In this document: one piece after another, positions 46,683 through 55,207 of the stretch
Numbering within the stretch: position 1 is the stretch's first letter
How the letters are laid out: each line of letters begins with the position of its first letter
Assembly: GCF_026914265.1 (NCBI RefSeq)
Contig: NC_069125.1
Location: 64,159,479-64,223,478 of the forward strand
Length of the DNA: 64,000 bases
Reading direction: 5' to 3'
Source of the DNA: Mya arenaria
Lineage: Eukaryota; Mollusca; Bivalvia; Myida; Myidae
Position numbers and translations under genes: made by a program
Notes under the pieces: generated by a model
What the model was told of the DNA's origin: nothing
Databases searched by the model: none
What the model saw: only the letters and a program-made list of their open reading frames with translations

Positions 46683-49600
46683 CTATGCGACAAGAACACA
46701 TGCGCCACCAGCCTGTCGGATCTTCTTCTGGGCAGACTGGCTGAAAAACTTGGCCTTGACAATCACAGGCTGCTTGGGGAGGTGGCCCTTGCCCAGAACC
46801 TTGTAGTAACCCTACAAAAAAGCCAATACAGTATAGGGGCTCAGCCAAATGACAACATTGAGGTATGTTCCTAGTGTCTGTTCAATAAGAAGTATATTTT
46901 TCTTCAATACCAAAGTGGCTGGATTGTTTTCAGCCACTGCTCAAGAAGGTAAAAAGGCCCGGAATATTGATACAATATAATGTCATAATGATGATGTAGA
47001 AGAGTTGCAGTAAGTTGCAAATAGGTGCCTAGAAAATATGATCCGGGGATGCAGGTTTTTACGTCAGGCGATTTCCCTGCATAATCTGCTCTTTGAGAGG
47101 ATTTAATTGCAATAGTTGGGCCCATTGACTAACATGATCACAGGGACTTCTGATGAGAAAGTTATCAATATAATTGCATCAGAATAGGTTTTTATCACCA
47201 TGTAACTGTATGACAGGGATAACTAGTCAACATCATTGCAATCTGGTATTGACAACTTTTTTAATTCTATTGTATATCAAAAGAGTATTTTTTTACTTGA
47301 GGGATTGCTATAGCAATATATCATATTAGCATCTTTAAATGATTCATGTCAACAACAGCAGCTTGTGCATTCTCTGTGTCGACAGTAAACTGTTTTGCTA
47401 ACATACACTTCAACTTGGAAGTTGACCAAGGGACATGCCAAATAAGTATAAAAGCATGTATGATGCACTTGCAAGTTGTGTACATATGAATAATTGTTTT
47501 AAAATCCTTACAAAATTTCAACTTTAAAGTTATGGCCAACAGGGCAGTGTTTTGCCTGATGCCCAAAAGTCAACTATGGCTTATCATTATTTCACATTCA
47601 ATTTCCAAAAAGCAGACAAGCTTAAAAAGGAAAAACAGATATGTGCAAAGCTCAGAGAAGGTACATCAAATGCAGTGTAAATACTAAAATAATCTATAAA
47701 TCTTTCAATACAAATCAGTACATAAACTATTGCTTTAGAGGTAGGTTTTTGTCACCAGACTAACTGTATGACAGGAATAACTAGTCAACATCATAAGCAA
47801 TCTGGAATTGGATTTCAAATACACATTTAAATAACTGCACAATAATGCCAATGAATCCACGGCTACTATAAAAATGTGAATATCTTAGAATTTTCTTTCT
47901 AAACATAAACAACACCACAATTTAAATAAATTGAAAAGCATTTACCATGCATAGCTTCAGACTTGAATATTAATTGGATATACATAATAAATTAGTAATA
48001 AGTCTTTAATTCTTCGTTATAATTGCTTCAGAGTAGGTTTCTGTCACCATGAAACTGTATGACAGGGATAACTATTTGACATCATAAGCAATCTGGTAAT
48101 GGTCTCTCTTAATGATGTTAAAGTAATGCAAAATAACTAGTGCTTGACTTAAGTACGTACTGATCTGACTACATCAATGACGGGGGCCTTGTCTGTAGAA
48201 TTGGCGTATTTCTCGCGGGTCTGTTCTGACACAAGGGACCAAAGTTTGTCCAGGTTCAGTGTAGGGCAGAAGAACTTGTTCTGTGTCTTGTGGAAATACC
48301 TCATACCAACTTTACCGAAGTATCCAGGATGGCTGAAATACATGGAAATATCTACATTTATTCAGTTTACACAATGAGTCCTTTTACGTTGTTTAAACTT
48401 TCAAAAATGTCTGGACGTAAGAGGTAGACTTAAGCAAGAGTGCCTAAACTCCGAAGACAATCCACATTGCTTTACCACTGCTTCATATGAATACAGAGTC
48501 AAAGGACCGAGCATCCCAAGCAAAGAAGTGGAATGTCAAGATCACTGCTTCTGCTTTTAAGTGTACAAACATTGCCTCAGCCTGACGTGCTGTTTTCACC
48601 ATAGTATAGTATGACAGCAATAAATTGTTACATCAAAGGCAATACTTATACTTTATTTGACATTAACATGATGGCAATCACAGCATCACCACTCCATATT
48701 AAAACTTCATAGAATAAGATGTTGCATGCATTACCTTCCATGCACTACCAAAGATACTGCAGACATTCATCACAGATATTTTAACAGTGTTCGACACTAA
48801 CAGGATCCAGAAAATCCCAAAGTTCAAGGAGGAACTACTTAGGCTAAACAGGAATTTCTATGGAATGCAACAGATATCCATTTAATGTATCTAAAACAAT
48901 ATTACTTCACATGGAAACTGGACAATTCTAACCACTAAGATAAAATAATAGGAAATGTCTGGACGTAAGAGGTAGACTTAAGCAAGAGAGCCTAAACTCC
49001 GAAGACAGTCCACATTGCTTTACCACTGCTTCATATGAATACAGAGTCAAAGGACCAAGCATCCCAAGCAAAGCAGGGAACACAATATGGACAAGAAGGT
49101 GATACCATTCTTTGAACATCTACAAGGTAAATCTTGATAATCGTTCTATTCCATGCCCCAGCCTGACGCGCTGTTTCCACCACATAACAATATGACAGAG
49201 TTAACTTGTTACATCATTGGCATTGAAATCCAACATCCACAGACTAACCAAGGACAGTTATGGTTGAATGAACAATGTCCTATTTTGTTCTGGTCACTAA
49301 AAATGAGTTTTAAAAAGACATTTATAAAATATTTCAGTACTATTTTTTAGTCCTTTTACCTGAATTTCCAAGAACTTGAGAAAAATATCCACTAAATGTA
49401 TCTATAACAATATTTCCTATAACAGTGGGGAAACTGGACAATTCTAACAAAGTAGATCAAATAGAAGGAAATGTCTGGACATAAGAGGTAGACTTAAGCA
49501 AGAGTGCCTAAACTCCGAAGACAGTCCACATTGCTTTACCACTGCTTCATATGAATACAGAGTCAAAGGACCAAGCATCCCAAGCAAAGAAGTGGAATGT

Positions 49601-55207: not shown

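Follow-up and report, generated by a model that had tools for sequence, protein, structure and literature searches.

Host gene and array layout

The window, by which the whole stretch of 64,000 nucleotides of Mya arenaria DNA under analysis is meant, contains the gene for ribosomal protein RPL27A on its minus strand. The joined exon translations match Pfam PF00828 (RPL27A/uL15) with an E value of 3.7e-17, and their best PDB chain is uL15 (E 5.5e-78). The numbering of exons and introns is an assumed one, and exon 1 was not located. The following parts of the gene were placed by their junctions, the exons also by their RPL27A/uL15 match:

54919..54982, minus strand: RPL27A exon 2
54276..54351, minus strand: RPL27A exon 3
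48333..54275, minus strand: RPL27A intron 3, 5,943 nt, host of the array
48161..48332, minus strand: RPL27A exon 4
46683..46811, minus strand: RPL27A last exon, with the stop

The next intron, called intron 4, extends from 48160 to 46812. Intron 3 carries ten H/ACA and ten C/D units, arranged as C/D-H/ACA pairs on the minus strand. The first-pass annotation had described about ten units of each class on the sense strand of the gene, within an RPL27A intron of nearly 6 kb. The exon matches, the intron length and the anchor and tail scans (10 + 10) bear this out, and the coordinates, strand and copy numbers of the array are confirmed. Its limits as first given, 48405..53326, are the last base of H10 (48405) and the first base of C1 (53326). 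The distance from H10 to exon 4 is 72 nt.

H/ACA anchors occur ten times, at a spacing of 500-548 bp, and nowhere else in the window. ACA tails likewise number ten in the array, with 15 further matches outside it in a loose scan, and C/D tails number ten at a spacing of 454-584 bp, with one extra loose match at 34976. Within 48300-53500, the most frequent self-offsets are 1051 and 1050, and 503 and 504 are also high; the first-pass annotation, correct in its main points, had put the half-unit at about 530 bp and the higher-order unit at about 1.05 kb. Each unit consists of a spacer followed by a C/D and then an H/ACA segment and is 500-548 bp long, except for the first (A1), which measures 415 bp with an upstream border placed by hand. 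Two unit types can be split by their spacers, in the order A1 B2 B3 A4 B5 A6 B7 A8 B9 A10, and the higher-order A/B period is 1,050 bp. Alternation, as first described, holds for the C/D and H/ACA segments, but strict alternation of the unit types is broken at B2/B3.

A pattern scan for internal exons found no GTRAGT donor in 53500-48334, and the seven [AC]AGGTRA words in this range occupy no position common to all units. The scan for internal acceptors also gave no matches, with a pattern that is stricter than the array intron's own acceptor and would miss that one too, which makes this null result weak.

Judged from sequence, the units look like snoRNA genes, and the snoRNA-like identity proposed earlier is supported by their boxes, structure, guide content and conservation. 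Covariance search against Rfam, suggested in the first-pass annotation as a check, yielded sub-threshold matches to SNORA57 and snoR38 but nothing at gathering score in the window. In a search of 10 kb, all 29 Rfam matches fell on the minus strand.

H/ACA units

The ten H/ACA units, with the evidence on which each was placed, are as follows (R1 being a covariance model):

53106..53234, minus strand: H1, H/ACA, type A (anchor scan, R1 search, box/fold check)
52603..52731, minus strand: H2, H/ACA, type B (anchor scan, R1, box/fold check)
52103..52231, minus strand: H3, H/ACA, type B (anchor scan, R1, box/fold check)
51570..51697, minus strand: H4, H/ACA, type A (anchor scan, R1, box/fold check; SNORA57 24.1 bits)
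51053..51185, minus strand: H5, H/ACA, type B, 3' hairpin with insertions (R1, box/fold check)
50519..50647, minus strand: H6, H/ACA, type A (anchor scan, R1, box/fold check)
50002..50134, minus strand: H7, H/ACA, type B, insertions as in H5 (R1, box/fold check)
49469..49597, minus strand: H8, H/ACA, type A (anchor scan, R1, box/fold check)
48953..49081, minus strand: H9, H/ACA, type B (anchor scan, R1, box/fold check)
48405..48533, minus strand: H10, H/ACA, type A (junctions, R1, box/fold check)

All ten copies carry the hinge AAAGCA and the tail ACATTT, in agreement with the H box and ACA end first reported, and all ten keep the pocket words CTTGG, ATATGAAG, GTCTTCG and ACCTC. The compact stem TTAGGCA, part of the same description, is found in seven of the ten, but H5 and H7 have TTAGGGA with an insertion and H9 has TTAGGCT. 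When hinge and tail are constrained to be unpaired, a two-hairpin fold is obtained for every copy, and the features of box H/ACA RNAs (two hairpins, an ANANNA hinge and an ACA three nt before the end) are present in the array copies. In free MFE folding, H5 and H7 fail to give two clean hairpins.

Single-copy fold z values are -3.37 for H1, -3.00 for H4, -1.69 for H10 and -0.83 for H5, the last with a few flanking bases. A fold scan over B2, A4, B5 and A10, four of the ten units, gave sense windows over the H/ACA segments with z values of -5.9 in B2, -5.5 in B5 and -3.6 in A4, and no sense window beyond -2.3 over H10 in A10; on the antisense strand, a single window passed the cut-off, with a z of -2.33, in A10. 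With the exception of C1, the array copies that the covariance models R1 and R2 match had served to build them. Weak matches to non-members comprise three on the antisense strand (E 0.13-0.54) and those at 16022 and 19184 (E 0.45 and 0.47).

At the level of sequence, the H/ACA units resemble SNORA57. In the 10-kb Rfam search, seven of the ten copies match this family at E values of up to 5, and three are not listed for it. In a search of 291 bases, SNORA57 was the sole H/ACA family matched by H4 (E 0.00079), and the best score, 24.1 bits, falls short of the gathering score of 40. H4 aligns to the SNORA57 (RF00191) consensus over both pocket guides, UGUCUUCGG and CUUGG. The likeness to this vertebrate family comprises two hairpins, hinge, ACA and predicted 18S sites in common, but the array copies remain sub-gathering (24 versus 40 bits) and are repeated ten times in tandem within the RPL27A intron.

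On a human 18S segment, GTCTTCG (7 nt) and ACCTC flank the 1045/1046 uridines in a pocket-like manner. CTTGG fits beside 1004 on the same segment, with about 3 bp on the other side of the pocket; judged by eye, this fit of the 5' pocket is weak (5+3 bp). According to the accessible part of one study, SNORA57 guides 18S 1004 via a non-canonical 5' pocket, its 3' pocket can mediate 18S 1045/1046, and human SNORA57 was active in yeast only once altered to fit the yeast target (PMC8522698). The three human 18S sites, 1004 and 1045/1046, are listed at 97, 92 and 100% in the available portion of a modification table (PMC6182160).

C/D units

The ten C/D units were placed as follows, R2 being the second covariance model:

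53260..53326, minus strand: C1, a decayed C/D without the box C/D' part and with a mutated guide; D box CTGA (box scan, R2)
52806..52878, minus strand: C2, C/D type B, D box CTGA (box scan, alignment, R2)
52302..52374, minus strand: C3, C/D type B, D box CTGA (box scan, alignment, R2)
51726..51798, minus strand: C4, C/D type A, D box CTGA (box scan, alignment, R2)
51260..51332, minus strand: C5, C/D type B, D box CTGG (box scan, alignment, R2)
50676..50748, minus strand: C6, C/D type A, D box CTGA (box scan, alignment, R2)
50209..50281, minus strand: C7, C/D type B, D box CTGG (box scan, alignment, R2)
49626..49698, minus strand: C8, C/D type A, D box CTGA (box scan, alignment, R2)
49152..49224, minus strand: C9, C/D type B, D box CTGG (box scan, alignment, R2)
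48571..48643, minus strand: C10, C/D type A, D box CTGA (box scan, alignment, R2)

Box C (TGATG) is present in nine of the ten copies and the D box CTGA in seven, both together in six; box C of the array copies ends in T, not A. The broken D boxes already noted at first pass are the CTGG of C5, C7 and C9 (3/10). A TGCC/GGCA terminal stem is common to all nine copies that were aligned (C1 left out), and the single-copy fold z is about -0.8. C1 was recovered by R2 with an E value of 6e-12, although this model was built without it. In the 10-kb Rfam search, C2, C3 and C9 match snoR38 at 24.5-30 bits and C4, C6, C8 and C10 match SNORD24 at about 25 bits, sub-gathering throughout. SNORD24, SNORD34, SNORA46, ceN61 and others were dropped as unit names because their matches are sub-gathering.

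The guide originally proposed for the C/D units, GCACGTCAGG, is found in six of the ten, but C5, C7 and C9 have GCGCGTCAGG and C1 has GCAGGTCAGG. Six copies drawn from both types share, without a single difference, a 28-nt stretch that runs over C', D guide, D box and stem; the D' guides differ. In six copies, the D guide GCACGTCAGG forms nine Watson-Crick pairs and one end G-U with LSU UCUGACGUGC, and the complementary LSU stretch is present both in a 28S-like fragment of the species' own genome and in the Rfam consensus. The A-to-G guide change of C5, C7 and C9 keeps the pairing through G-U, and C1 has a mismatch. The chance expectation for this fit, computed under equal base frequencies, is 2-11%, varying with the rRNA length and the offsets allowed. 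By count on the 28S sequence, the predicted site would lie at about 1461, between 1327 and 1509. Another 28S target for the type-A D' guide was considered and dropped for its weak pairing.

Three C/D copies lie in the next intron:

48021..48093, minus strand: snR38-like C/D copy 1 (snoR38 42.6 bits, gathering 45, E 0.00018)
47728..47802, minus strand: snR38-like C/D copy 2, D box CTAA (snoR38 29 bits, E 0.25)
47172..47243, minus strand: snR38-like C/D copy 3 (snoR38 42.6 bits, gathering 45, E 0.00018)

These snR38-like genes at 47172-48093 form a second local expansion within RPL27A. Their 12-nt D' guide pairs with ACAGGGATAACT at 12/12 positions (copy 2 with one G-U), and they align with nine array C/D copies in the C, D', C' and D segments. 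On this alignment, the array C/D copies are related to snR38. They have in common with snR38/snoR38 (RF00213) the C box, the D' segment CTGTCATA and the C' TGGTG, but in the nine copies scored (C1 was not) the guide fails to pair with the snR38 target at 1-2 positions, the D guide is another one, and type A copies match SNORD24 instead (about 25 bits). The chicken counterpart of snR38 is GGgCD64, according to the accessible part of the chicken account (PMC2653536).

Conservation between copies

Ten pairs of units were compared with A1 left out, three of them being A versus B. In these three pairs, identity is 95-98% for H/ACA, 80-86% for C/D, 44-50% for the spacer between C/D and H/ACA, and 38-55% for the 80 bp that precede C/D. 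The remaining spacer stands at 56-66%, its first 100 bp or so seeming related by eye. A4 and B2, for example, are identical at 125/128 positions of the H/ACA segment versus 15/30 in the C/D-H/ACA spacer (Fisher p 2.5e-10). Within type A, A8 and A10 differ at 5/198 sites in the snoRNA segments versus 45/329 in the spacers (p 1e-5), and between A4 and A10 the snoRNA segments are again less diverged than the spacers (p 7e-4). For B2 and B9, the whole comparison of snoRNA with spacer gives p 6e-4.

At first pass, conservation no greater than that of the spacer had been named as grounds for rejecting the snoRNA reading. Between A and B, the snoRNA segments are conserved beyond the spacer, but within type B the 150 bp adjoining the snoRNAs are as conserved as the snoRNAs themselves (p 0.77), so part of the likeness would come from recent duplication or conversion. 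Neighbouring dimers are near-identical, spacers too. Both purifying selection and recent duplication or conversion thus fit as contributors to the conservation. An alignment of eight H/ACA copies, all but H6 and H7, shows no compensatory base change; no pair is changed on both sides, so covariation lends no support.

About 80 bp before each type-B C/D (52376-52465 and the homologous B spacers) are 91-98% conserved, near the snoRNA level. A third snoRNA in the spacers was considered for a spacer window in A4 (z -2.6) and for a window before the C/D in B2 (z -3.3) and rejected, as no hinge or tail was recognised; four A spacers show no compensatory change. One piece of the A spacer, 51852-51935 in A4, recurs at 54040-54123, upstream in the array intron, with 77% identity, and this duplicated piece falls partly on the stretch of the A spacer with the strongest conservation.

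Occurrence in the genome

Own-genome DNA searches placed all matches in the RPL27A gene. A 1,001-base array query has at least seven matches, all at this locus and one of them being the 77% copy of the A-spacer piece; the H/ACA query finds at least 10 places, the snR38 query at least 3 and the C/D query at least 9 (ten are known; C9 was missed). These counts are lower bounds, and some sequence may be absent from the assembly. The same genome contains one 28S fragment (L010, 2907-3186), the sole piece of rRNA within 9.9 kb of contig C14. A 20-nt 18S pattern has no exact counterpart in the assembly, and the 28S patterns have no further matches there; given the lone LSU fragment and the lack of an 18S match, intact rDNA seems to be missing from it. 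An rRNA match in the viral contigs was set aside as chance, the contig being an apparent RNA phage without any Rfam match. The 18S pattern was not found in the viral contigs, nor any rRNA pattern in the other genome contigs.

Comparison with known snoRNA clusters

Animals usually have one snoRNA gene per intron. Intronic H/ACA clusters were reportedly described in Drosophila by Huang et al. in 2004 and resemble the array in placing several H/ACA snoRNAs in animal introns; they are said to consist of H/ACA isoforms, with no regular C/D partner or higher-order unit. To our knowledge, trypanosomatid snoRNA clusters do not lie in ribosomal-protein introns. As far as the accessible text goes, trypanosomatids do have C/D and H/ACA genes mixed in reiterated repeats (PMC2656528), and rice and Chlamydomonas, in the parts of the accounts available, have snoRNA clusters inside introns, but none of these are animals. 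Mammalian SNORD113-116, in the available part of their description, are comparable as large tandem arrays with subfamilies and conversion, but are C/D only, orphan and imprinted (PMC11028025), whereas the RPL27A array has both classes, rRNA-type guides and a housekeeping gene as host. Chicken RPL27A also hosts H/ACA snoRNAs, which are ACA3-related, but these are 28S guides, with one snoRNA each in introns 2 and 3, again according to the accessible text (PMC2653536).

The accessible part of the published account of sponge ribosomal-protein introns contains no comparable array, and no report of one in molluscs or other animals was recognised among titles and abstract openings. The earlier remark that co-amplification of both classes is unusual holds for an animal, but mixed and tandem snoRNA clusters are already in print, and the array is a variant of these. 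Those titles and abstract openings likewise showed no single animal ribosomal-protein intron that combines both classes, ten copies of each, with a higher-order period.

Proposed origin and function

The reading preferred here, at a probability of about 0.82, is that this intron of RPL27A is polycistronic for snoRNAs and derives from an amplified pair of a C/D and a SNORA57-type H/ACA gene. An ancestral pair of this kind would have been duplicated into two units that diverged as A and B, and the A-B dimer would then have been amplified to ten pairs, most simply via unequal crossing over. The array intron would be transcribed and spliced with RPL27A, snoRNP proteins would bind the units, and cuts between units together with trimming would release the snoRNAs. 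Ten doses of H/ACA RNA may then pseudouridylate 18S at the equivalents of human 1045/1046, and perhaps 1004. About six doses of C/D RNA would be released, in which the D' guide is mutated and the D guide, pairing with 28S UCUGACGUGC, predicts 2'-O-methylation of the A of UCUGA.

An array that is no set of genes at all, being an ordinary satellite with chance boxes or an assembly artefact, is very improbable. Other tandem repeats do occur in the window, and near-identical dimers invite assembly collapse or expansion. However, structure is found on the sense strand, all the Rfam matches of the 10-kb search fall on the minus strand, conservation favours snoRNA over spacer, and most copies differ in sequence. 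A different question is how many of the copies function. The array may be mostly dead, with one or two pairs making functional RNA and the rest carried as passengers without a dosage role, spread by unequal crossing over and conversion. Four of the ten C/D copies with a CTGG D box or a lost box C, the stem insertions of H5 and H7 and the near-identity of adjacent dimers, spacers included, would all be expected in such a case; it is nevertheless rather unlikely, in view of the hinge, tail and pocket words kept in all ten H/ACA copies and of the excess of spacer over snoRNA differences between A8 and A10. For the C/D member taken separately, a decaying snR38 relative with no working guide, carried along with the H/ACA gene, is a possibility to be taken seriously, though at less than even odds. 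It would account for the nine scored copies, whose D' guide mispairs with the snR38 target at 1-2 positions, and for the four of ten copies without a good box C or D, and the D-guide fit could be due to chance (2-11%). In the accessible part of the human modification table, no entry for 28S falls between 1327 and 1509, which points the same way (PMC6182160). The identity of the 28-nt stretch from C' to stem in six copies across both types speaks against decay, as does the A-to-G change that keeps a G-U pair in C5, C7 and C9, yet these same copies have CTGG.

The manner of release has its own alternative. In the usual route, exonucleases trim the debranched intron down to the snoRNP, and two snoRNAs in one intron can yield sno-lncRNAs by this trimming, according to the available part of one account (PMC11028025). 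For an intron with twenty units, the prediction is therefore that the units are either cut apart or left as linked products. If internal units are out of reach of exonucleases, the products might be linked snoRNA chains (sno-lncRNAs) acting as sponges or regulators. The distances seen in nine units, 30-76 nt from C/D to H/ACA and 229-311 nt from H/ACA to the next C/D, would suit such chains; nonetheless, what the spacers of A and B have in common is, by eye, limited to about 100 bp following each H/ACA, and guide pockets, which a sponge does not need, are kept in all H/ACA copies, so this role is quite improbable.

Starting from the preferred reading of an amplified C/D and H/ACA pair, a further claim can be put forward tentatively, with the odds against it: the 20-unit array would be the sole genomic source of its guides, would need cuts between units or linked products, and would include duplicated snR38 genes in which the old guide was lost and another gained. 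If this reading of the 20 units were true, the habit of one snoRNA per intron would be broken, and the guide gained would be for a 28S methylation absent from humans. Ten copies per class make it testable how animals release internal snoRNAs, and the array likewise makes it testable whether the extent of rRNA modification depends on gene dose. A change of guide after duplication can also be tested because intact, decayed and possibly re-targeted copies lie side by side.

Other features of the window

On the minus strand at 14391-16519, open frames with a FADDNG motif resemble, by eye, parts of a reverse transcriptase of the non-LTR kind. On the plus strand, 58099-59514 holds an open frame of 471 codons with many proline motifs, which is probably a coding exon. 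Tandem arrays with units of about 145, 146, 166 and 169 bp occupy 33466-34674 and 44010-45867.
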